Below, one piece after another: positions 2,919 to 44,877 of a DNA stretch of 64,000 nt; position 1 is the stretch's first letter, and each line of letters opens with the position of its first letter. Source of the stretch: an uncultured Lachnospiraceae bacterium (GTDB lineage: Bacteria; Bacillota; Clostridia; Lachnospirales; Lachnospiraceae); assembly GCA_900316625.1 (NCBI GenBank), contig ONDO01000001.1, positions 57,449 through 121,448 of the forward strand, written 5' to 3'. Under the pieces are notes generated by a model. That model saw only the letters and a list, made by a program, of their open reading frames with translations, had not been told where the DNA came from and did no database searches. The translations under genes were made by a program, and so were the position numbers.

Positions 2919-3064
2919 AATAAAAAATCCTCCATCTGCGCCCCTGCTTCGACGCACCTCATATGCGTAAACAGGAACACGAAAAACTCCCCGATCAAAC
3001 TCCATACAGATAAAACCCTGTTGTGGAGATAGGATCGGTCACTAAAGCTATAATGTATCGGAAA

Positions 3065-31354: not shown

Positions 31355-33766
31355 TCATTGCGAAGGATTTCGATACTTTTTATAGCTTTCGACCCTTATT
31401 TTCCGACCATCCATGTGCACGCGAATTCTCCCCTCCCAGATGGTGCAGTCCCAATCCGCCCCGACATGTTCGATTCTGGCCCGGGCCTCCTTGCCTGGAT
31501 GACCATACTTATTGTTTTTCCCAGCCGAGATCAGTACCTCCCTTGGCTTTACCAGCTCCAGGAGCTTCTTTGAATTCGATCCATCTGCACCATGATGCGC
31601 GGCCTGCAGGACCTCCACATCACTTAGATCAATTCCCAAGGCCTTCGCCTCTACCATTGCCGCCCTCTCTCCCTTCTCCTCTAAGTCCCCTAAGAAGAGC
31701 ATCCTGCTCCCCTCCTCTGTCTCATAGAGAAATGTAAGGCAGGCGTTATTTCGGTCCACAAGAGTTTCTTCTCCCTTCCCATCCGGCGGATAGAAAAAGC
31801 GAATCCTGTCATGCCCCATATGAATCTGATCCCCTGCCTCCACATAGAGAATCTGACTTCCTCTTAAGCGGATCTCTTCCTCAAGGCTCTGCCACTTCTC
31901 ATCTCCTCTTACGATCGGAGATACACAGACATAAGAAATAGGATAATCGGAAGAAAGCACTTCCATAAATCCATTCACATGATCATCATCCAGATGCGTC
32001 AGGATCCAATAATCCACCCTTCGAATCCCTGAATATCTGAGATAGGGAAGAAGCCGGTACTGCCCTACGTTTTGGACATCAGAACTACCTCCGTCTACGA
32101 AGACTGTCCCTGCCCGGTTCTTCACTACAACTGCGAGTCCCTGCCCGCAATCCAGCATGTCCACCCGTTTCGCAGGACTCAAAGGAAGCAGGAAGATCAG
32201 TGCAATCAAAAAAGCACACAACAGCTTATGCGGCTGGAATTTCTTCTGAAGAGACCCTGATAGCAGGAAAAAAGCAAAGTAAGCAATCAGGATCCGAGAC
32301 AGGCCCGGGTAACCCACAATGATCCGCGCAAAGGGAAAACGAAGGCTTATGGATGCAGTTGCCTCCATGAAGTAGAGCATGATATGACATGGCAAAAGGA
32401 TCCATGGAATGGGCAGAAAAAGATTGATCAGGCCACCTATAAGTGCGATGAAGAGCATGACCGGAAACAGAGGCAGCAGGATCAGATTCAAAAGGAATAC
32501 ATAGACAGGTACTTCGTAAAAAAGCGCCGCCACCAGAGGCAGGGTCACAAACTGGATGGCCAGGGCCAGCAAGGCCTTGCTAAAGAGATATTCTTTCAGA
32601 TTTGGGCGATAGCGATGCCCGCCATAACTTCGATGCCACTTCTCCCACCGCTCTCTGCACATCTTTTGATATGACTTCTGTATGGGGAGTGCCATGCTTA
32701 AGAGAAAGAAAACTGCGCCATAAGAAAAAAGAAATGCCGTGTCCTGGATTGCCATGGGATTATCTATAAGTTGCAGCATCGCCATAAAAGACAGGGCAGA
32801 TCTGCCATCGTAGGCCCTTCCCAGGGTCTGGGACAAAGCCATGACAAGAAACGATCCAACCGCACGAATGGTGGGGATGGAATTTCCGCACATTGTTCCA
32901 TAGAATAAGGCCAGAAGCCCGGCAAGCAATCCGCTGACGCCAAAGGAGAGTCTGCGTTTTCTTAAGAAGCGGTAGAAAAACATGGAAACCAGACCGATAT
33001 GGGTACCGGATACAGACATAAGATGTATAATCCCTGCCATTCGGAAGAGTTCCTGGCTGTCCTCTGACATATCCGAACGGTCGCCTAAGGCCATGGCAGA
33101 CAAGAGCCCTGGTTCCTCTCCCGGCAGACTCTGGTTATAGATCAGAACCAGGCGTTGCCGTAAGGAATGAAGAAAACGAGGGATAAGATAGACTCCACCA
33201 TGAAGTCTATCCTCTTCCACCATTCTTGGATTTCGCATCTGTGCGACTTCCTTACGGCAGGCATGGAAGGTCCTGCTATCAAACTGTCCCTCATTGGTCG
33301 CCTCCGAAAAGAGCCGTATCTTGCCCTTCCATCTGGCTTCCTGTCCGATGAAAAGGCCCGGGTCCTGATCCGCATCAAAATAAAGAAGAATCTTACCAAG
33401 ACTCTCCTGCTCTTCGTTTCTTGCATTACTAAGGGTATAAATCAACTGGTCATTCTTCTCTTCGATTCCCGAAACCGTACCCGTAACTTCTCCAGACGCT
33501 TCTGCAATCTGCATACGATAGAGAAGGTCCTGTCCATAGAGACTGCTTCTTATGCTCATCAGACAGAATACGGCGGGAAGACAGCAGAAAAGAATCCTTG
33601 ATTCTCTTCTGCTCACTCTCCGACCGGTTTTCTTCCCCACAAGCGCTATGGTCATACCCTCTCCAAGGAGAGAAAGGATAACCACAAGGGGCACAGGCAG
33701 GTCCAGCCTGCCTGTAAGTAGTCCAAGAATCAGAACGACCGCCATGACTTCCATGGGGCGTTTCAA
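31355..33766 (-). CDS. comEC: DNA internalization competence protein ComEC/Rec2
   Basis: Membrane channel and nuclease-like protein for DNA uptake, 803 residues. The N-terminal DUF4131 part is followed by the polytopic competence domain (GLLSAMALGDRSDMSED, HLMSVSGTHIGLVSMFFYRF, GNSIPTIRAVGSFLVMALSQ). The C-terminal metallo-beta-lactamase-like domain has VDMLDCGQGLAVVV, DGGSS, THLDDDHVNG and LQAAHHGADGS. The start is TTG at 33766 with GAGG seven bases upstream; ATG at 33754 is an alternative. It follows the GerMN lipoprotein, and comEA is 5 kb away on the same strand. Confidence 0.93.
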   Translation of the reverse strand: MKRPMEVMAVVLILGLLTGRLDLPVPLVVILSLLGEGMTIALVGKKTGRRVSRRESRILFCCLPAVFCLMSIRSSLYGQDLLYRMQIAEASGEVTGTVSGIEEKNDQLIYTLSNARNEEQESLGKILLYFDADQDPGLFIGQEARWKGKIRLFSEATNEGQFDSRTFHACRKEVAQMRNPRMVEEDRLHGGVYLIPRFLHSLRQRLVLIYNQSLPGEEPGLLSAMALGDRSDMSEDSQELFRMAGIIHLMSVSGTHIGLVSMFFYRFLRKRRLSFGVSGLLAGLLALFYGTMCGNSIPTIRAVGSFLVMALSQTLGRAYDGRSALSFMAMLQLIDNPMAIQDTAFLFSYGAVFFLLSMALPIQKSYQKMCRERWEKWHRSYGGHRYRPNLKEYLFSKALLALAIQFVTLPLVAALFYEVPVYVFLLNLILLPLFPVMLFIALIGGLINLFLPIPWILLPCHIMLYFMEATASISLRFPFARIIVGYPGLSRILIAYFAFFLLSGSLQKKFQPHKLLCAFLIALIFLLPLSPAKRVDMLDCGQGLAVVVKNRAGTVFVDGGSSDVQNVGQYRLLPYLRYSGIRRVDYWILTHLDDDHVNGFMEVLSSDYPISYVCVSPIVRGDEKWQSLEEEIRLRGSQILYVEAGDQIHMGHDRIRFFYPPDGKGEETLVDRNNACLTFLYETEEGSRMLFLGDLEEKGERAAMVEAKALGIDLSDVEVLQAAHHGADGSNSKKLLELVKPREVLISAGKNNKYGHPGKEARARIEHVGADWDCTIWEGRIRVHMDGRKIRVESYKKYRNPSQ

Positions 33767-33781
33767 GTTCTTACCTCTTTC

Positions 33782-34771
33782 TTAATTCACGGATTCCTCT
33801 GTTTTATCTGCATCAGCTTCATCAGAATCCGGTACAACAATTGCTTCATTTCTGACATAGAGAATACTATCTCCCTGATTATTCAGGTTGATGATCTTCC
33901 CATCCATGGACAGAAGGACCTTGTTCACCCCCGGCACTTCTGTCAGGGAGTTCACGATCGCATAGACAGCCGCTTCCCTGGTAACATCCGTATTGGCACT
34001 CAGGAAGTTCGAAGACAGATTCACATAACAGATACCATCTGCAATGGACAGACTAAGAAGGGATGTATCCTTGCTATATGCCGGTTTTGCACCTCCGGTT
34101 GTAGGCGTCTTCTGCAGGTATTCCATCACAACTCTGCCAATGGGCACATTGCTGTCATAGCTTACCTTCTTCTCCTCCTTCACCAGTTTCTCGCCCGACG
34201 CATCCGGATAATAGAGAGTGAGAGTAGCAAGCTGGGTCGAAGTCTCATCTCCAATCATTCCTAAGACAAAGGAATCCTCTGTCATGGGACCGATCGTGCT
34301 TCCTCCTGGCGTTACAAGTGCTGTATGGTCTACCAGAAACTCTACGCTCTCGACTTCTTCTATCTGGAGTAAAGTCTTAACGATAGCTGCACGCACCAGG
34401 GTTTCCTGGGTTCCGGACAGATTCAGATAAGAACGGTTAAAGGAGACCGTCAGTCTACCGGTTCCTGCATTAAATACATAGTCCTGTACCGTAATTCCAT
34501 CTGGTATGGGACGGATCATATCGCTCTCATCTGTGCTCTTCTGCATCTCAATCAGAAGATTGGAGATCTTCTCATTCGTATCAATTCCCGAAGGCGTATA
34601 AGCTTCTTCTGCAAGAGCTGTCTTATCTCCGTTCAGATCATAGATCACAAAGCCTGCATCCTCTTTCATCGAGTCATCTGAAAAGCTGCTAAGCTTACCG
34701 CATCCCGAGAAGATGCCAAGGAGAAGAAAGATGGCAAGAAGTGCGCCTGCTCTATATTTATTCCGAATCAT
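33782..34771 (-). CDS. GerMN domain lipoprotein
   Basis: A 329-residue lipoprotein with signal peptide and lipobox FSGC. It contains two GerMN-type repeats, roughly residues 60-165 and 200-310, each with the pattern ...YFN/LSSNF... and an end in EVE/VLLSMDG. Bacillus GerM is needed for engulfment and germination, but GerMN lipoproteins also occur next to two-component kinases in non-spore contexts such as the actinobacterial LpqB. Here the ATG overlaps the stop of the sensor kinase by four bases (ATGA), so kinase and lipoprotein are translationally coupled. I infer it modulates that kinase at the membrane. Confidence 0.85.
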   Translation of the reverse strand: MIRNKYRAGALLAIFLLLGIFSGCGKLSSFSDDSMKEDAGFVIYDLNGDKTALAEEAYTPSGIDTNEKISNLLIEMQKSTDESDMIRPIPDGITVQDYVFNAGTGRLTVSFNRSYLNLSGTQETLVRAAIVKTLLQIEEVESVEFLVDHTALVTPGGSTIGPMTEDSFVLGMIGDETSTQLATLTLYYPDASGEKLVKEEKKVSYDSNVPIGRVVMEYLQKTPTTGGAKPAYSKDTSLLSLSIADGICYVNLSSNFLSANTDVTREAAVYAIVNSLTEVPGVNKVLLSMDGKIINLNNQGDSILYVRNEAIVVPDSDEADADKTEESVN

Positions 34772-36288
34772 GCCAGGTCCTCCTTCTCTATATAACGAAG
34801 GGGAAGACGGACATCGAAGGTCGTTCCATGATCCACCTCAGAAGATACGCGAATCTCGCCATGGTGCAGCTTGATCACATTGGATGTAATCGCAAGACCC
34901 AGACCTGTACCACCGATCTCTCTGGAATGGGACTTATCGACACGGAAGAAACGCTCGAAGATGCGGTCGATGGAATCCGCGGGAATACCCATACCGGAAT
35001 CTTCAACGCGGATATAGCAATACTGATGATCTGAGTTCAGAGAGACATGTACATAACCGCCATCATGGTTGTACTTAATACCGTTCTCTACCAGGTTCAT
35101 AAGGGCAAGCGTGAGTTTTGTTTCATCTACTTCGGCTATTACCGGACGAAAAGACTCCAGCACCAGTTCCACCTGGGAATTCTCCGCCAGAGGACGAAGT
35201 CGTTTCAGGAGAGACTCCATCATGTCATTCATAACAACAGAGCTGATATTCATATTCACTCCGGACCTGTCTAACTTTACCAGAGACAGAAGGTCATTAA
35301 TGACATTATTCTCACGGTCGATCTCACTGGTGATATCTCCCATGAATTCCCGATACATCTCAATCGGTGCTGCATCGCCCATGGAATTGATCGAATCCGC
35401 AAGTACCTTTATGGATGCCAGCGGGGTCTTCAGTTCATGAGAGACATTGGATACGAATTCGTTACGGGATTCATCCATATCCTGCATCTTCGTGTGATAT
35501 GCGTTAAAAGCTTCGCTGATATCCACGGCCTCTGTATAGCCCACAAGCGGAAGACTGGTCTGAGCCTCTTCCTGGGCCTGGCGAATTCCAGCCGCAATCT
35601 TCTTCAGACGCATGGTCATATGACTCGAGCACAGAAGGGCGAAGGCCAGGGAGACAATAATGGAGATCAGGATCACTTCCCAGGAGACATCTGTCATGAA
35701 GGCTATATTCTGTGAGATATAGGATGCTGACTTCACCACAAGAAGCACGCCTAAGACACTGCTCTCTTCGTCGCTGACATCAACCGGCTCTGTATCATTA
35801 CCCAGGCTTCCCTTACTGATTGTCGTCTTCTTCTGCGTATCCGCCAGGCTGGCAAGAGCCGGAATCGGCACTGCCACGATCAGATTATTACCGGATCTGT
35901 CATAGTAGGAATTACCGCTGCCATTAGCAGCCTGCACTACATTTCTCCAGAGCATTGTCTTGCCCTGGTCCACTCCGTAGGTATCGGAGACAACCACCAG
36001 GGAGGAATCCATGACCATGATTCTTCCGGAATAGGCATTCGCCAGTGCTGTAAACTCTGCATTCAGGAAGTCCAGGCTCGGATCCTGCAGGTATCCTGTT
36101 GTTGCAATCTGTGTATTCAGAGACATGGCGATGGAATTCACAGAAGAGATATCCGACTGAATCTGACGACTCTCATACAACTTCAAAAAGCCGGCTGTAA
36201 TGGCAATCGTCGGCACTAGAAATGACATAATAATCACTAGAAAAATTCGTAGATGAAGACTCTTAAGAGTCCGAAGCAGGGTTTGCAT
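34768..36288 (-). CDS. Membrane sensor histidine kinase with HAMP domain
   Basis: A 506-residue sensor kinase. Two membrane segments (about residues 13-33 and 200-222) flank an extracellular domain of roughly 165 residues; a HAMP linker, DHp domain (SNVSHELKTPLASIK) and ATPase domain follow. N box NLVENGIKYNH, G1 DSGMGIP, F box FERFFRVDKS and G2 GGTGLGLAI are intact, so it should autophosphorylate. The best partner is the OmpR-type regulator at 38274-38963, separated from it by the GH5 and AraC genes. Its own promoter lies at 36336-36365. The stimulus is unknown; WalK-, ResE- and PhoR-like roles are possible. Confidence 0.9.
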   Translation of the reverse strand: MQTLLRTLKSLHLRIFLVIIMSFLVPTIAITAGFLKLYESRQIQSDISSVNSIAMSLNTQIATTGYLQDPSLDFLNAEFTALANAYSGRIMVMDSSLVVVSDTYGVDQGKTMLWRNVVQAANGSGNSYYDRSGNNLIVAVPIPALASLADTQKKTTISKGSLGNDTEPVDVSDEESSVLGVLLVVKSASYISQNIAFMTDVSWEVILISIIVSLAFALLCSSHMTMRLKKIAAGIRQAQEEAQTSLPLVGYTEAVDISEAFNAYHTKMQDMDESRNEFVSNVSHELKTPLASIKVLADSINSMGDAAPIEMYREFMGDITSEIDRENNVINDLLSLVKLDRSGVNMNISSVVMNDMMESLLKRLRPLAENSQVELVLESFRPVIAEVDETKLTLALMNLVENGIKYNHDGGYVHVSLNSDHQYCYIRVEDSGMGIPADSIDRIFERFFRVDKSHSREIGGTGLGLAITSNVIKLHHGEIRVSSEVDHGTTFDVRLPLRYIEKEDLA

Positions 36289-36335
36289 AGAACCTCCGTA
36301 GATTAGGGAATTCGCTTATTCCAGCGTGTCTTTTT

Positions 36336-36365
36336 ATTATAGCCCCAATCTGACGGAGGATTCAA
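36336..36365 (-). promoter_or_regulatory. Promoter of the sensor kinase-GerMN-comEC run
   Basis: Minus strand TTGAAT (36365-36360), 18-nt spacer, perfect TATAAT (36341-36336). It sits immediately after the GH5 stop codon, giving the kinase its own transcription start. Confidence 0.6.
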
Positions 36366-36373
36366 TCTGAAAA

Positions 36374-37393
36374 CTAGCGGGTAATCTCCCTGATGATCTC
36401 ATCACGGAGGTCATCATAGTGGGGTTCGGTAAGACCGAAGTCCATCTCTTTCCAGGACCAGACAGCGGAGCCAATCTTATACTTACGGAAGAGGCTTGTG
36501 GTATCACGGAACCAGTTCAGGGTATCTTCTAACGGTGCGCGGTCAATGACACCATACTCACCGCAGTAGAGCTGAACGCCATAGCGATCTGCAGTTGTAA
36601 TTGCATCCGACATAACCTCTTCCAGCCAGTCGATATCTACTTTTTCTCTGGGATTCTGGACAAGAGGAATACCCTGATCCCCCAGAGCGATACACTGTTC
36701 GATATAATCTGCCTTCTTGGCAGGATAATGAACATCAGCTTCCGGATCCATATTCTTCACCCAGTAAGCCTTCTGATGGGTGAAAATCAGAGGCTCATAG
36801 AAGTGGAAGGTATAGATGATATTCTCATCAATGGGAGCACCTAAGTACTGCATGGTTCTTGCGCTGTTCCACTGAACGCCACCATAGATGATCGGGGTAA
36901 GCGGGGCAATCTTACGAATCTCGCCAACGGTACGATGAATCAGAGCATTCCACTCATCGATACAATCCTCTTCTACAACCTCATTCAGAAGTTCAAAAGC
37001 GATATTATTGTAGCCGAAGAAGTGCTTTGCAATCTCGATCCAGAGATTTACAAAACGGTCCTTGGCATCCTGATTATTGAAGAGAGAGTTCTTCTCCTTA
37101 TCTCCTGCATCATTGAAGTCATATCCATACGTACGGTGCAGGTCTAAGATGATATTCAGTTTATATTCCATGCACCAGTCGATCACCTTATAGAGGCGGT
37201 CAAAACCACTCTTGCGGTAAGTACCATCCTCTTCTTCGAGTACCGGATAGTCCACCGGCAGTCTTACATGGTCGAAGCCGCTTTTTGCAATCTGAGCAAT
37301 ATCCTGCTTCGAGATAAAAGTATCATAATGATCCTCTTCATAGACACACTGGGACATCCATCCGCCTAAGTTCACACCATGCATCAGTTCCAT
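36374..37393 (-). CDS. Cytoplasmic glycoside hydrolase family 5 (cellulase-like)
   Basis: A 339-residue TIM-barrel hydrolase of GH5. HGVNLGGWMSQ at the N-terminus, FDHVRLPVDYP, the acid/base Glu138 in ELLNE and the nucleophile Glu279 in LYCGEYGV are all present. There is no signal peptide, so it acts on imported oligosaccharides such as cello- or manno-oligomers. ATG at 37393 has GGAGG seven bases upstream. It is divergent from an AraC-type regulator, with a 15-bp palindrome in between; I infer local control. It interrupts a two-component operon. Confidence 0.88.
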   Translation of the reverse strand: MELMHGVNLGGWMSQCVYEEDHYDTFISKQDIAQIAKSGFDHVRLPVDYPVLEEEDGTYRKSGFDRLYKVIDWCMEYKLNIILDLHRTYGYDFNDAGDKEKNSLFNNQDAKDRFVNLWIEIAKHFFGYNNIAFELLNEVVEEDCIDEWNALIHRTVGEIRKIAPLTPIIYGGVQWNSARTMQYLGAPIDENIIYTFHFYEPLIFTHQKAYWVKNMDPEADVHYPAKKADYIEQCIALGDQGIPLVQNPREKVDIDWLEEVMSDAITTADRYGVQLYCGEYGVIDRAPLEDTLNWFRDTTSLFRKYKIGSAVWSWKEMDFGLTEPHYDDLRDEIIREITR

Positions 37394-37451
37394 ATCTATT
37401 CCTCCTATACCACAGCAGGGATTCTCTCCCCTTACTTCTTTCATTTGATAG

Positions 37452-37466
37452 TGTGAGTTTCTCACA
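37452..37466. promoter_or_regulatory. Palindromic candidate operator between GH5 and AraC genes
   Basis: Perfect inverted repeat TGTGAG (37452-37457), TTT, CTCACA (37461-37466) in the 153-nt divergent region. The position suits control of GH5 and possibly of the regulator. AraC proteins usually bind direct repeats, so the binder may be another protein. Confidence 0.45.
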
Positions 37467-37479
37467 GAAAGCATCGCAA

Positions 37480-37508
37480 TTCTGTCAGATTTATGATATT
37501 TTTATAAT
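37480..37508 (+). promoter_or_regulatory. Probable promoter of the AraC-type regulator
   Basis: Perfect TATAAT at 37503-37508 with a weak -35 (TTCTGT, 37480-37485) and a 17-nt spacer. A weak -35 is consistent with an activator-dependent promoter. Confidence 0.45.
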
Positions 37509-37546
37509 AAATATGATGCAAATTTTAAGAAAGCGAAAGGCCAAAT

Positions 37547-38272
37547 ATGGACGATATCAAAAACACCCTGATCGACCTATATGCAGAGAACACAAAGGCT
37601 GATTATCTCCCAGAGCTTGCCTTCTACAACCTGATTGCAGATACGGACCTCAAAATCGTTCGCGATTATCTTAAACAGCCTTTTAGCAAAACCATCGGTC
37701 TCGGTGCCCTCTCCAGGGACCCGCTGCAGAACCTAAAATACCATTTCGTCGTCACCGCAGCTCTGCTCTCTCGTGTCTGTATCGCCCGTGGCATGAGTGT
37801 TGCTACTTCCTACCGTCTGAGCGATTTCTACATACAAAAAGCAGACCTGGCGAAAAAGAACGCAGATCTGGATAGATTACATGATGAAATGTGTTTGGAT
37901 TATGCAAAACAGATGCGGGAAGTGAGACGAGAGCCGGTGCATTCTGCCATTGTTGCCAGATGCATTGATTATATTCATGCCCATATCACTGAGAAAATCG
38001 TAATTCATGAACTCGCAGCGAAGCAGAATCTGAGTCCGGAACATCTGTCACGGACCTTCTCCTCGGAGATGCATCAGTCTCTGAGCCATTACATCCGGCA
38101 GCAGAAACTACATGCAGCAAAAACTCTGCTCTCTTACTCAGAGTACAGTATTGCAGAGATTTCCGAAGGACTCTCCTTCTCCAGTCAGAGTCAGTTTACA
38201 GCCCTCTTCCGCCAGGAAGAAAATATTACCCCTTCCCAGTATCGGAAGTATTCCCGCAGGAATTTCTTATAA
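37547..38272 (+). CDS. AraC family transcriptional regulator
   Basis: A 241-residue regulator. The C-terminal 100 residues hold two helix-turn-helix motifs: VIHELAAKQNLSPEHLSRTFSSEM and the recognition helix of the second, SIAEISEGLSFSSQSQFTALFRQ, then the ITPSQYR end typical of AraC. The N-terminal 130 residues (GLGALSRDPLQNLKYHFVV) form no recognised sugar-binding cupin but resemble those of other clostridial AraC proteins. It is divergent from the GH5 gene, which I infer as its target. Its stop is one base from the convergent response regulator stop, with no room for a terminator. Confidence 0.9.
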   Translation: MDDIKNTLIDLYAENTKADYLPELAFYNLIADTDLKIVRDYLKQPFSKTIGLGALSRDPLQNLKYHFVVTAALLSRVCIARGMSVATSYRLSDFYIQKADLAKKNADLDRLHDEMCLDYAKQMREVRREPVHSAIVARCIDYIHAHITEKIVIHELAAKQNLSPEHLSRTFSSEMHQSLSHYIRQQKLHAAKTLLSYSEYSIAEISEGLSFSSQSQFTALFRQEENITPSQYRKYSRRNFL

Positions 38273-38273
38273 A

Positions 38274-38963
38274 CTATTGGCGATAATAATATCCAATGCC
38301 CCACTTGGTACGAACATAACGGGGTTCACTGGGATTGGGTTCTAACTTCTCACGAAGTCTACGGATATGCACATCAACCGTTCTTGCATCTCCAGGATAA
38401 TCATCACCCCAGATCTCGCTCAAAAGAGCTTCTCTGCTATACGCCTTATCCGGATTCTTTACCAGGAGGTAAAGCATGTCGAATTCCTTACCGGTCAGGT
38501 TGATCTCACGGTCCTTTACCAGCACACGTCTGGATTCCGTATCCATCGTAATATCGCCACTGACAAGATTATTCTCATCTGCACTTCCAGCCTTCTCGGG
38601 ACTGGTACGACGCATGATTGCCTTAATTCTTGCCTTCACTTCAAGGATATTAAATGGCTTGGTAATATAGTCGTCTGCACCATAGTCCAGACCCAGGATC
38701 TTATCCATATCATCTGACTTAGCGGTCAGCATAACGATGGGAACATTCGAAAATTCACGAATGTGCTGGCAGACTTCAAATCCATCCATCTTGGGCAGCA
38801 TGACGTCGAGAAGAATCATGTCGTAGTGATTCTTCGTCGCAAGATCGAGTGCTTCTTCACCATCATAAGCAGGATCCACTTCCATGCCATCCTGCTCCAG
38901 GCTAAAACGGATTCCTTTTACAATCAGCTTTTCATCGTCGACAACTAATACTTTCTTAGCCAT
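38274..38963 (-). CDS. OmpR-family response regulator
   Basis: A 229-residue regulator. The receiver domain has the acidic pair Asp9/Asp10, the phospho-acceptor Asp53 (LLDVMLPKMDG), Thr in VMLTAKS and Lys in YITKPF. The C-terminal winged helix ends RTKWGIGYYY with the OmpR signature EIWGDDYPGDARTVDVHIRRLREKLE. It resembles the WalR/RegX3 branch. The nearest kinase is at 34768-36288 on the same strand, but two genes lie between. comEA is 59 nt upstream, so comEA, this regulator, the kinase, GerMN and comEC may once have formed a continuous run. Confidence 0.92.
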   Translation of the reverse strand: MAKKVLVVDDEKLIVKGIRFSLEQDGMEVDPAYDGEEALDLATKNHYDMILLDVMLPKMDGFEVCQHIREFSNVPIVMLTAKSDDMDKILGLDYGADDYITKPFNILEVKARIKAIMRRTSPEKAGSADENNLVSGDITMDTESRRVLVKDREINLTGKEFDMLYLLVKNPDKAYSREALLSEIWGDDYPGDARTVDVHIRRLREKLEPNPSEPRYVRTKWGIGYYYRQ

Positions 38964-39022: not shown

Positions 39023-39760
39023 TTAACGGACCTTGATCTGATCCTTTATCTTGTTATAAGCACCCTGCTTAATTCCTGGAATCTGCATAATATCCTCCGG
39101 ATGCTCAAATGGTCCATTTTCTTCTCTATAGGAGATAATCGAAGATGCTTTGGACGAACCGATACCAGACAGAGTCATGAGTTCTTCCGGACCTGCCGTA
39201 TTGATATTCACAAGACCATCCGAGGACTTACCACTGACGCCCTCTGTCCCCCTACCACTGATATCCCCTGCCGCAAGAACTGCAAGATCCTCTGGTTTCT
39301 GTCCCCTCGAGATAAGTTCATCGACTTCTTCCCGGGTCAGAACATAGACTCTCTGTCCATCGCTTAAACGTTCTGCCTGGTTCAGATTCCTGTCATATGC
39401 ATTGGGAAGAAGGCCTCCCGCAAGCTGTATCGCTTCGTAGAGACGACTACCTTCCTTCATCTGATAGACTCCGGGTTCTTTCACAGCACCGGAAACCTGT
39501 ACGATCCAGTCCTTTGTTACAGACTCAGACGAAGACTTTTCTTCCTTCTGTTCTCTGCTTTGCTCTGTACTCTGTTCTGTACTTTGCTCTGCACGCTGTT
39601 CTGTACTTTGCTCTGCACTCGGCTCGTCATGACTGCAGTCGATTTCTTTTGCCTTCTCTGTTTTCTCCAGATAAGAGGTCTTGCCGCAAGCCATAAGAAT
39701 AAGCCCGGAAAGCACAATGCATCCAAGCATAAATACAAATAAATGAATTTTTTTCTTCAT
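39023..39760 (-). CDS. comEA: Competence protein ComEA-like lipoprotein
   Basis: DNA-binding component of the competence machinery, 245 residues. A signal peptide ends in a lipobox-like LMAC, then a Glu/Gln/Ser-rich repetitive linker (EQST, EQRA, EQSR units), an SLBB domain (VQVSGAVKEPGVYQMKEGSRLYEAI) and a C-terminal pair of helix-hairpin-helix motifs (VNINTAGPEELMTLSGIGSS, IMQIPGIKQGAYNKI). ComEA binds double-stranded DNA outside the membrane and hands it to ComEC. It has its own promoter. Most ComEA proteins have an N-terminal anchor, so a lipid anchor is a small departure. Confidence 0.9.
   Translation of the reverse strand: MKKKIHLFVFMLGCIVLSGLILMACGKTSYLEKTEKAKEIDCSHDEPSAEQSTEQRAEQSTEQSTEQSREQKEEKSSSESVTKDWIVQVSGAVKEPGVYQMKEGSRLYEAIQLAGGLLPNAYDRNLNQAERLSDGQRVYVLTREEVDELISRGQKPEDLAVLAAGDISGRGTEGVSGKSSDGLVNINTAGPEELMTLSGIGSSKASSIISYREENGPFEHPEDIMQIPGIKQGAYNKIKDQIKVR
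39545..39616 (-). repeat. Tandem 12-bp repeat inside comEA
   Basis: Six copies of a 12-bp unit coding for EQ-x-x tetrapeptides (EQST, EQRA, EQST, EQST, EQSR, EQKE) in the linker between membrane anchor and SLBB domain. Frame-neutral length variation is likely. Confidence 0.75.
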
Positions 39761-39859: not shown

Positions 39860-39885
39860 AAAAAAGGATTCCCTGGCAGGAATCC
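39860..39885 (-). terminator. Rho-independent terminator of the NifX-FKBP fusion gene
   Basis: On the minus strand GGATTCC (39885-39879) pairs with GGAATCC (39872-39866), loop of 6, then T6. Confidence 0.85.
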
Positions 39886-39907: not shown

Positions 39908-40813
39908 TTATTCTGTAACCTCAACAAGCTCGATCTCGAAGTTCAGTGCCTTACCGGCAAGTTCATGGTTTGCATCCATGGTGATATTGGTTTCGTCTTT
40001 TGCCGTAACAAGAACCGGAACCGGCTGTCCATATGCATTTGACAGATATACATGCTCGCCTACGCTCAGTTCTTCAGAACCGGGAAGATCTTCGATCGCG
40101 ATGGTAATAATGTTCTCTGGATTCACTTCGCCATAAGCTTCAGAGGGCTCGAGATGAACCGTAATCTTCTCACCGACTGTCATCGTCGAAACAGCCTTGT
40201 CAAAACCATGGATCATCATGCCTGCTCCGCAGATGAAGTCAAGGGTCTGGCCACGATCATAGGAAGAATCGAACTGGGTGCCATCATCCAAGGTTCCTCT
40301 GTAGTTGACCTTAACCGGTTTACCGACATTGGGGCCTTCGAAATCAGGAACATACTCATGTCCACCGCAACCACCGCAGCCACCGCCGCAGCCACCGCAG
40401 GAATCATCGTCACCGCAGCCACAGGAATCATCCTCAGAACCACAGCAACCACCACAGCCTTCCTCATCATGGGCACCACAGCCGCCTTCGGAGTCGCTTA
40501 AGTTTGCGGGAATCAGTTTGCCCTGAAGGAAAGCGTTAACCGCTTCGTCTGCTGTTCCACTTGCACCTACGAAGGCGCCAATGCCGGCATTACCAAGTGC
40601 TTCCCATGCGTGAGGTCCCATATTCCCACTGACTACTGCACTGACTTCATTACGAACCATAAGAGACGTCATTGCAGAATGACCTTCTCCCTCTGCATCG
40701 ATAATGAAGGAATCGAGAACCTTACCATCTTCTACTTCATAGATCTTAAACTGCTCTGCCTTGCCGAAATGATCGTTTACATTTCCCTTATTGTAAGCTA
40801 CTGCTACTCTCAT
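39908..40813 (-). CDS. NifX/NifB-like domain fused through a Cys-rich linker to an FKBP (SlyD-like) isomerase
   Basis: A 301-residue fusion. Residues 1-100 match the dinitrogenase iron-molybdenum cofactor-binding family (RVAVAYNKGNVNDHFGKAEQF, GNMGPHAWEALGNAGI). Residues 112-149 hold ten cysteines in a Gly/Asp-rich stretch with a nearby histidine, a likely metal site. Residues 160-301 are an FKBP peptidyl-prolyl isomerase of the SlyD kind (VNYRGTLDDGTQFDSS, SEAYGEVNPENI, then the flap insert and EIELVEV end). ATG at 40813 has AAGGAG six bases upstream. It is monocistronic with its own promoter and terminator. A role in metal delivery or folding of metalloproteins is inferred; no nif genes are nearby. 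Confidence 0.85.
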   Translation of the reverse strand: MRVAVAYNKGNVNDHFGKAEQFKIYEVEDGKVLDSFIIDAEGEGHSAMTSLMVRNEVSAVVSGNMGPHAWEALGNAGIGAFVGASGTADEAVNAFLQGKLIPANLSDSEGGCGAHDEEGCGGCCGSEDDSCGCGDDDSCGGCGGGCGGCGGHEYVPDFEGPNVGKPVKVNYRGTLDDGTQFDSSYDRGQTLDFICGAGMMIHGFDKAVSTMTVGEKITVHLEPSEAYGEVNPENIITIAIEDLPGSEELSVGEHVYLSNAYGQPVPVLVTAKDETNITMDANHELAGKALNFEIELVEVTE

Positions 40814-40877
40814 TCTTAACTCCTTAACCAGAACCACCCTGAGGATGATTTATATTTTACAAAACATAACTTTTATC

Positions 40878-43053: not shown

Positions 43054-44814
43054 CTATTCCTCTAACTTCCGCTCATAGGCCCTCTCCTTACGGATCTGGG
43101 CATCCCTGACACCGAAGCCGACGATCAGCATACCATCGATATTCCGTACCGCCTTCATCTCAGTGAACTGACCCTTATTATTGCGATACACCCTGGAGAA
43201 ACTGTGCAGTCCATCCAGGGACTCAAGCAGAGTATCCAGATTCGAGAACTGAAGCATTTCCTCCTGGTCATCCTTCAGGACACCTTCGGAAATGTAGAGC
43301 TTCATGGCAGACTCGTAATTCCTGCGCTCCAGCTTATCCCCGAACATGTCCGTGATAGGCCCGGTCTGTTTGATTACCGTAAGAGACTGATCTTTCGGAT
43401 TCACTTCACAGATAGTCGAATAATCATCTGCCAGAACCGAACTCAGGGCCTTTAGCTTATTCATCTCCCCTTGTCTTCGGTTCTTCTCTTCGAGAATGCC
43501 CTCTTCCCTGTACTTCTGCGCATTACGGATATTAAGCATCTCACTCTGCATGAGAGCACGCATCATATTGAGGGTATTGTAATTCTCGAAGAATCTCTTA
43601 CGGTTCTCAACTGCAACCATACCTTCGAGCTCACTTAAGATCATGATCGGGAAGCACATGAAACTATAGACACCAAGTTTTTTCAGCATCTCATAGAGAG
43701 ATTTCTCTGATTCCCGGATATCCTCAATATTCCTTGCATCCAGGATTCCATTTCTTCCAAAAGTATTTCTCCAGTACTTCAGTAAGTCGATCGGCATCTC
43801 CTGGAGTTCATCCATCTTAGGACTCACACCGTTCGCCGTCCACTCGTAACGATTGCGGATACAATTTGCATCATGGTCCACGACAAAGACGCTGACACGA
43901 TCCGCTTCGTAGAAATGTCCCATAACGGAAATCATATGACGGATGGCCTGTTCCGGCTCATCAATGGTAGAGAGAATATTGAAAAATGCGTCCTGGGATT
44001 CAAAACGGAGTTTTCTATTCTCTTCACTTACAGCCTCTTCGAGGTCATTCTTGGCCTGATCGAGCTCCTCCTGGGTCTTAAACTGCATCTCATTTAAGAG
44101 ACTTATCTCCCGCCGATTGGCTTCCGCAACCTTGGCATCCATCTCATGGAGTTCAATCAGGAACATAAGAAGAACCGGAAGTACCATAGAGATACTGGTT
44201 AAGGAAAGTCCATAGAGGAAGAACTGCAGTACTACTGCAATCAGAGGAATAAAGATAAAGAAATAGAGTGTAAACTTGATTCCCTTACTCAGCTTCTTAC
44301 CATAGCGTGAAAGAGTATAGAAAAGGGTCGGGAAGATGATTGCCGACGGAATGTAACTCAGAATATAGAGCGGTGCTCTGACATAGAGATTGGTCGCCGG
44401 ATCAATCGAGTAATAGAGACCGGTAAACTGGGAGATGAGGACGAAGAAGACTGCAATCATAGAGACAGCTTCTACCAGTCCAATCGAAGACGGAACAAAA
44501 TCAATGCCGCCTTCATCCTTCAACATATCTGCCAGGAAAAGGGCAAAGAGGAAAGTCAGCATGTATGGCAGGCAGAAGACCATGAAATTACTAAGCCGGA
44601 CCATGACAAAGCCAAGATTGCTCACATCACCCCTGTACTGATAAGAGAAACGTTCAAAAATCAGCAGGAACATCTCCGTGCTGGTCATGAAAATAAGAAG
44701 TTTTCTCCGATAGATCGGAATTGATCTTGAAATAGCTGTAAAGATGCAGGTGATAAAGCAGATTCCACTCTGCACCATCATTAAATCCGTCTGTATCAGA
44801 ACAATGCCAGTCAT
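43054..44814 (-). CDS. Membrane protein with cytoplasmic coiled coil and GAF-like domain, unknown function
   Basis: A 586-residue protein. The first 240 residues contain about six or seven hydrophobic segments (IVLIQTDLMMVQSGICFITC onward), resembling 7TM sensory regions. A charged coiled coil (residues ~235-280: NRREISLLNEMQFKTQEELD) leads to a GAF-like domain (~290-440, with RVSVFVVDHDANCIRNRYEW and SFMCFPIMI). The last 140 residues include LADDYSTICEVNPKDQ, a PAS-like stretch seen before GGDEF domains, but no GGDEF, EAL, kinase or HD output is present. GAGGGGG lies six bases before the ATG, buried in a hairpin. It lies 115 nt downstream of argD. Confidence 0.8.
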   Translation of the reverse strand: MTGIVLIQTDLMMVQSGICFITCIFTAISRSIPIYRRKLLIFMTSTEMFLLIFERFSYQYRGDVSNLGFVMVRLSNFMVFCLPYMLTFLFALFLADMLKDEGGIDFVPSSIGLVEAVSMIAVFFVLISQFTGLYYSIDPATNLYVRAPLYILSYIPSAIIFPTLFYTLSRYGKKLSKGIKFTLYFFIFIPLIAVVLQFFLYGLSLTSISMVLPVLLMFLIELHEMDAKVAEANRREISLLNEMQFKTQEELDQAKNDLEEAVSEENRKLRFESQDAFFNILSTIDEPEQAIRHMISVMGHFYEADRVSVFVVDHDANCIRNRYEWTANGVSPKMDELQEMPIDLLKYWRNTFGRNGILDARNIEDIRESEKSLYEMLKKLGVYSFMCFPIMILSELEGMVAVENRKRFFENYNTLNMMRALMQSEMLNIRNAQKYREEGILEEKNRRQGEMNKLKALSSVLADDYSTICEVNPKDQSLTVIKQTGPITDMFGDKLERRNYESAMKLYISEGVLKDDQEEMLQFSNLDTLLESLDGLHSFSRVYRNNKGQFTEMKAVRNIDGMLIVGFGVRDAQIRKERAYERKLEE

Positions 44815-44820
44815 TCAAAG

Positions 44821-44877
44821 CCCCCTCGCTCGAATATACAAGATGTCAGCTTTTATTTTATACCCAGAGCGAGGGGG
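44821..44877 (-). promoter_or_regulatory. Inverted repeat that covers the ribosome-binding site of the membrane GAF gene
   Basis: On the minus strand CCCCCTCGCTC (44877-44867) is perfectly complementary to GAGCGAGGGGG (44831-44821), 35-nt loop. The 3' arm contains the only Shine-Dalgarno (GAGGGGG) for the ATG at 44814. There is no T tract, so it is not a terminator. Confidence 0.6.

Follow-up and report, generated by a model that had tools for sequence, protein, structure and literature searches.

An AraC–GH5 module inserted between the response regulator and kinase genes of a comEA–comEC operon, and a predicted fold-back leader of the kinase gene

Introduction

The transposase gene of IS10 is guarded by a fold-back structure against transcription that enters from outside. 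The arrangement predicted herein resembles it in that one arm of a hairpin is encoded 5′ of the site where the gene's own transcripts begin, so that only outside RNA hides the ribosome-binding site. The IS10 gene belongs to a transposon, whereas our case concerns a chromosomal sensor kinase gene and is known from computed folding alone. A literature search on read-through-protected starts returned no usable paper.

The operon that carries this kinase gene has its own set of described counterparts. LpqB, for example, has a GerMN domain, as does a lipoprotein-like product of our locus. In the accessible part of a report on the actinobacterial MtrAB-LpqB system, LpqB is said to modulate MtrB (PMC5487470). 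The same order of regulator, kinase, and accessory lipoprotein genes occurs in relatives of our locus and is interrupted in the locus itself. In contrast to that system, the operon described here ends in comEA on one side and comEC on the other, and its response regulator (RR) scores below the cut-off of the MtrA model (233.8 vs 300).

The WalRK system of Firmicutes shares other features with the locus, including a lipoprotein gene in the operon and a regulator that matches the YycF model better than any other gene does in each of nine genomes of the genus. The RR reaches 257 bits where the YycF model demands 340, and this cut-off is exceeded in none of the nine. The wal operon of Clostridium difficile is given in the accessible text as walA-walR-walK-truA2 (PMC9210968), with walA preceding walR, whereas the GerMN gene follows the histidine kinase gene (HK) at our locus. 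On these sequence comparisons, the RR-HK system is filed under neither WalRK nor MtrAB-LpqB. Among publications retrieved on comEA, response regulators, and Lachnospiraceae, none is about a link between comEA and an RR, as far as titles and the first lines of abstracts indicate.

Two further systems bear on the genes that interrupt the operon. The noncontiguous operon menE-menC-MW1733-ytkD-MW1731 of Staphylococcus aureus, as presented in the accessible part of PMC7154746, likewise has an opposite-strand gene between co-directional genes. Our locus differs in that a promoter-like site and a predicted hairpin over the Shine–Dalgarno (SD) sequence separate its second half. In the celC-glyR3-licA operon of Clostridium thermocellum, the accessible text places a LacI-type regulator, GlyR3, within the operon (PMC5483248), whereas the GH5 gene examined here has a divergent AraC-type gene.

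Results and Discussion

Comparative evidence for an insertion between RR and HK

We analyzed a stretch of 64,000 nucleotides (hereafter "the window") from a single draft genome that is 84% complete and comprises 52 contigs; the locus lies inside a 121-kb contig. Open reading frames and Pfam matches give the minus-strand order comEA, RR, GH5, HK, GerMN, and comEC, with RR and GH5 flanking an AraC gene that is encoded on the plus strand (Table 1). This is the order given in a preliminary description of the DNA, and all seven genes are located where it had placed them. Outside this group, an open reading frame on the minus strand (39908–40837) encodes Nitro_FeMo-Co and FKBP-type isomerase domains fused through a Cys/Gly-rich linker.

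Table 1. Features of the locus (window coordinates)
Feature	Coordinates	Strand	Basis or remark
comEA-like protein (SLBB + helix-hairpin-helix)	39023..39760	-	Pfam HHH_3 + SLBB
RR, OmpR-class response regulator, WalR/YycF-like	38274..38963	-	Pfam Response_reg + Trans_reg_C
AraC-type regulator	37547..38272	+	Pfam HTH_18/HTH_AraC; convergent with RR, divergent from GH5
AraC/GH5 divergent control region, 153 bp	37394..37546	.	Intergenic position
GH5, CelC-like glucanase, 339 aa from the likelier start	36374..37393	-	Pfam Cellulase; PDB 1cec match
GH5–HK spacer, 85 nt: putative kinase promoter and fold-back leader	36289..36373	-	Sequence, folding
Promoter-like TTGAAT-18-TATAAT	36336..36365	-	-35/-10 consensus match
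Left arm CCTCCGTCAGATTGGGG, 17 nt, between the -35 and -10 boxes	36343..36359	-	Predicted fold
Right arm CCCTAATCTACGGAGG, contains HK SD GGAGG (36293–36297)	36293..36308	-	Predicted fold
HK, membrane sensor histidine kinase, PnpS/WalK-like	34768..36288	-	Pfam HisKA + HATPase_c
Lipoprotein-like protein, two GerMN (Germane) domains	33782..34771	-	Pfam Germane; lipobox-like LGIFSGC by eye
comEC/Rec2 DNA-uptake channel	31355..33766	-	Pfam Competence + Lactamase_B; TIGR00361 above cut-off

In the genus, the eight genomes besides that of the window all carry the order comEA-RR-HK-GerMN-comEC; HK directly follows RR in each, the module is absent, and a gap of 11 to 31 nt follows the RR stop codon. 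A tree of combined RR and HK sequences (121 rows) nests the window among these relatives as sister to L076 (support 99). Furthermore, the DNA of the 85-nt GH5–HK spacer finds no match elsewhere in its own genome or in the eight other genomes of the genus. Because the relatives are uninterrupted, the window is nested among them, and the spacer is unmatched in them, the module is derived in this lineage. It is shown by this comparison to be a derived insertion, at the level of sequence, exactly between RR and HK of an ancestral operon. The preliminary description had read the locus as a two-component operon entered by a two-gene module, and that reading holds; the possibility that the interrupted six-gene order is itself ancestral does not withstand the synteny comparison. 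The insertion as such is confirmed by the aligned gene orders and is ordinary in kind. We envisage that a cassette of AraC and GH5 entered the comEA-RR-HK-GerMN-comEC operon such that AraC came to end facing RR, with 1 nt between the two stop codons (38270–38272 and 38274–38276), and GH5 came to point toward HK.

An interruption seen in one metagenome-type draft might reflect a chimeric assembly, given the 52 contigs and that no second genome of the same species was seen. We regard this as extremely improbable, as both junctions fall at gene ends within the 121-kb contig and both halves of the operon, like the module, are close to the window in GC content and codon usage. The latter similarity also means that a foreign origin of the module, for which GC content and codon usage had been suggested as a check, finds no clear signature in composition. 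Codon usage z scores are 0.21 for GH5 and -1.68 for AraC (the latter rank 3 of 42, with comEC at rank 1), and GC fractions are 0.459 and 0.467, respectively, relative to a mean of 0.474.

AraC and GH5 form a recurring pair

For the GH5 gene, the ATG at 37393 is the likelier start compared to 37474, because GGAGG precedes it and because the alignments of most relatives begin only at about query residue 21–32; residue 28 of the window protein is that Met. The protein has no evident signal peptide. Its full-length match with CelC aligns both the NE and GE motifs, which we take to contain the catalytic-type glutamates of GH5 enzymes. CelC of C. thermocellum (PDB 1cec) is the closest solved GH5 structure over the whole length of the protein (E 3e-71, residues 5–334 of 339).

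Relatives of this GH5 were found on 131 contig stretches outside the window. Among the best 80 of these, a divergent AraC gene (counted when above 100 bits) lies upstream of GH5 in 28, at a distance of no more than 600 bp in 20 and of 0.8–4.5 kb in eight; five of the 52 unlinked loci have less than 1.5 kb of upstream sequence. The two genes are thus, as judged from these loci, a recurring pair, and the view that they represent one unit is borne out by the same divergent arrangement at other loci in other genomes. The closest AraC relative among the matches listed (51%, L102) is itself beside a GH5 gene. However, related AraC proteins also serve other genes, because only six of the 29 top AraC loci (L169–L197) have a GH5 gene within about 1.5 kb, and 23 have none. 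Two records from Treponema, a member of another phylum, carry GH5 with a divergent AraC gene (L099 and L129), which hints that the pair may have moved between phyla.

In a GH5 tree whose rows were chosen by likeness to the window protein, with six rows added as AraC-linked and the genus-mate L084 dropped, the clade that contains the window has 57 rows (31 AraC-linked, 24 unlinked, and two in which linkage could not be assigned). The other clade comprises 32 rows, of which four are AraC-linked, and includes three of four genus-mate GH5 proteins; both clades are well supported. A search for a shared AraC operator in 22 other AraC-GH5 intergenic regions was unconvincing: the best 10-mer, which is AT-rich, is present in 13 of 22, and shuffled sequences reach 7 to 11.

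The RR-HK joint is repeatedly broken in the family

The family was sampled as 120 genomes, one per genus, of which 115 yielded a GerMN match, and the locus was compared in 122 genomes (114 from the family besides the window and eight from the genus). Wherever the joint could be decided, comEA and RR are joined (117 of 117 relatives, with five at contig ends). RR and HK are joined in 100 of 118 decidable relatives and broken in 18, with four at contig ends. The idea that a regulator and its kinase would normally be adjacent therefore describes most relatives, but not these 18. The difference in breakage between the RR-HK and comEA-RR joints is significant when genomes are counted with kinship ignored (p 4e-6). 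When placed on the tree by parsimony, breakage at RR-HK corresponds to nine changes, including that in the window, and each is forced by well-supported branches. The remaining joints are mostly intact: HK and GerMN are joined in 120 of 122 genomes, with one of the two exceptions (L243) doubtful, and GerMN and comEC are joined in 112 of 118 decidable genomes and apparently broken in six, with four at contig ends.

The 18 cases comprise 15 in which the two halves reside in separate places, one inversion (L220), and two insertions. Both insertions occur in other genera; the inserted gene encodes a ClC channel in L021 and a DUF554 protein in L235. Like AraC, each lies antisense behind RR, and 37 nt (L021) or 6 nt (L235) separate its stop codon from that of RR. 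In L021, a terminator-like hairpin is visible by eye at the junction of the RR stop and the ClC gene. An apparent further insertion in L243 was rejected upon recognizing an in-frame N-terminal extension of HK; the genome was counted as adjacent, which reduced the changes on the tree from 10 to nine. This extension of about 150 residues is acidic and repeat-rich, and begins directly after the RR stop.

All 15 split genomes retain both RR (65–73% identical) and HK, and a DegV gene precedes HK in nine of them (confirmed by Pfam in one, L198). The best RR match was located in 20 genomes, among them the full set of 15 split ones, and comEA directly precedes it in every one. No close HK match exists within 2.5–3 kb behind RR in the 14 split genomes with enough sequence; in the other, L270, the sequence ends 0.5 kb behind RR. 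In L271, a weak kinase match (57 bits) is present 3.6 kb beyond RR. Judged by these gene orders, RR-HK is the weak joint of the operon, and the tightest neighbor of RR is comEA rather than HK. The retention of both partners when apart suggests that they still function together, and RR and HK probably still pair in trans. In the window, RR would likewise remain tied to comEA and act with HK in trans, as in relatives in which the halves are apart. That the RR of this family is linked most strongly to comEA bears on two questions: how two-component partners maintain specificity without a shared operon, and why competence genes surround a sensor system.

A putative promoter for the stranded kinase gene

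The GH5–HK spacer contains a promoter-like site, TTGAAT-18-TATAAT (36365–36336, minus strand), whose -35 box matches at only four of six positions. A site with at least 10 of 12 matches is unusual in a spacer of 85 nt, being present in 40 of 3000 shuffled sequences and in 22 of 3000 random 85-mers from the window. Over a 5.5-kb region, promoter-like sites are no more common than chance (10 found vs 8.6 expected). This lack of excess favors a neutral reading, wherein the module landed at a tolerated joint and the promoter and hairpin are chance features or leftovers of the insertion, such as a donor terminator region. The motif TAGTTT, which occurs at the stop codons of RR and GH5 alike, could represent a short target duplication, which would weakly favor the same reading. 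Nonetheless, the hairpin described below ranks first among 133 leaders, covers the SD exactly, and has its other arm between the promoter boxes, and we consider neutral hitch-hiking unlikely.

None of the eight genus relatives has a site with at least 10 of 12 matches in the 130 nt before HK. Among family members, with the window left out, such sites precede HK in four of nine separated loci lacking a DegV linkage vs six of 99 adjacent loci (Fisher p 0.004), a comparison for which the DegV-linked loci were set aside after their result (0 of 9) was seen; when pooled, the values are four of 18 separated loci vs six of 99 (p 0.046). A rank test of promoter scores, conducted before the correction of L243 and again without the window, does not make separated loci clearly better (p 0.09). 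Taken together, these data lean towards stranded kinases gaining promoters. The preliminary description had left it undecided whether HK "gained or kept" its own promoter. A promoter-like site is indeed predicted, and gain fits better than retention, because the genus relatives have neither such a site nor any match to the spacer DNA.

Between RR and HK, no minus-strand terminator-like site was found except for a weak one inside GH5, so read-through into HK is a real possibility. This absence of a strong terminator, together with the lack of a plus-strand one from AraC to position 39866, is compatible with a noncontiguous operon, and the gene order fits the published layout as far as the accessible part of PMC7154746 describes it. 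Such a transcript would begin with comEA-RR, cross AraC on its antisense strand, and continue into GH5 and HK, with AraC mRNA acting as an antisense RNA. However, the HK promoter and a hairpin that hides the SD would make this transcript a poor source of HK, and we judge the arrangement to be quite improbable.

A predicted fold-back leader that hides the kinase ribosome-binding site

Computed folds of the spacer pair the left arm, which is located between the promoter boxes, with the right arm, which includes the HK SD. Here, as in a fold-back-protected start, the arm that pairs with the SD is 5′ of the gene's own predicted transcription start near 36329. The leader of the read-through RNA folds with a z score of -4.45, which is equaled by none of 200 shuffled sequences; for the sequence 3′ of the -10 box, the z score is +0.49. 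By z score, the HK leader ranks first among 46 leaders in the window; the next two are at -4.39 and -3.56. The first of these values belongs to the leader at 3005 (minus strand), a strong predicted fold that leaves the SD uncovered.

Freeing the SD is predicted to cost 13.0–13.8 kcal/mol in read-through RNA (three lengths) and 3.7–3.9 kcal/mol in RNA initiated at the promoter (three assumed start sites). The weaker fold of the promoter RNA still pairs the SD in part, with values of 0.83–0.94 for four of the five SD bases. Among 133 leaders (35 from the window and 98 from 12 genus loci; median cost 2.2 kcal/mol), that of HK is the most occluded. Strong SD hairpins are not unique in this set, since four of the 133 leaders cost at least 10 kcal/mol. 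A hairpin of this kind is not a common trait of HK genes, as the leader in the window folds more strongly than all 119 other HK leaders examined (best z score -3.17). Likewise, the leader matches no repeated element or known RNA family, and tRNA is the sole Rfam match in the window. The leader occurs in one draft genome.

Since the left arm is present in read-through RNA, the HK ribosome-binding site would be hidden there, whether transcription arrives from GH5 or from comEA-RR. RNA begun at the HK promoter would lack the left arm and, given its computed fold, could be translated. This distinction weakens another explanation that the layout might otherwise invite. GH5 and HK are co-directional and their 85-nt spacer has no terminator-like site, and so GH5, HK, GerMN, and comEC might share a transcript from an AraC-controlled GH5 promoter, with sugar setting the level of HK. 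The cost of exposing the SD in that very RNA and the promoter-like site within the spacer both argue against such coupling, which we regard as distinctly unlikely.

We infer from the modeled folds that the kinase gene has acquired a promoter that itself incorporates a filter against read-through. The HK-GerMN-comEC half would be driven from the 85-nt spacer, and the outcome would be a steady HK level whatever sugar induces GH5, with neither GH5 induction nor read-through from comEA-RR altering the dose. Insertion of the module, a spacer promoter, a leader that hides HK in read-through RNA, and RR and HK acting in trans probably make up the best explanation of the locus as a whole. On this basis, the insertion may serve as a datable case of a regulatory gene surviving an upstream insertion by means of a cheap device, namely a promoter plus a fold-back leader. 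We also offer, more tentatively, the broader proposal that the operon breaks repeatedly at RR-HK while RR stays tied to comEA, and that an anti-SD arm embedded in a promoter constitutes a chromosomal insulator acting at translation. The weak RR-HK joint, the fixed comEA-RR pair, and a kinase leader predicted to be blind to read-through each seem worth following.

A second leader that hides an SD was noted at about 44815–44870, before a minus-strand gene start at 44814. It carries CCCCCTCGCTC, then TATAAAAT, and then GAGCGAGGGGG over the SD, with a freeing cost of 12.2 kcal/mol and a poor -35 box. The gene, which follows an argD-like gene, encodes a 586-aa protein that has no Pfam match. The modeled structure may represent the same kind of read-through filter.

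Small SD hairpins were also observed in the comEA leaders of two genus relatives, L076 (start at about 6665) and L079 (about 6493), where the window gene starts at 39760. Their freeing costs are 11.1 and 11.9 kcal/mol, respectively, and they are located wholly before the start codon. It is possible that these predicted hairpins control translation of comEA-RR.
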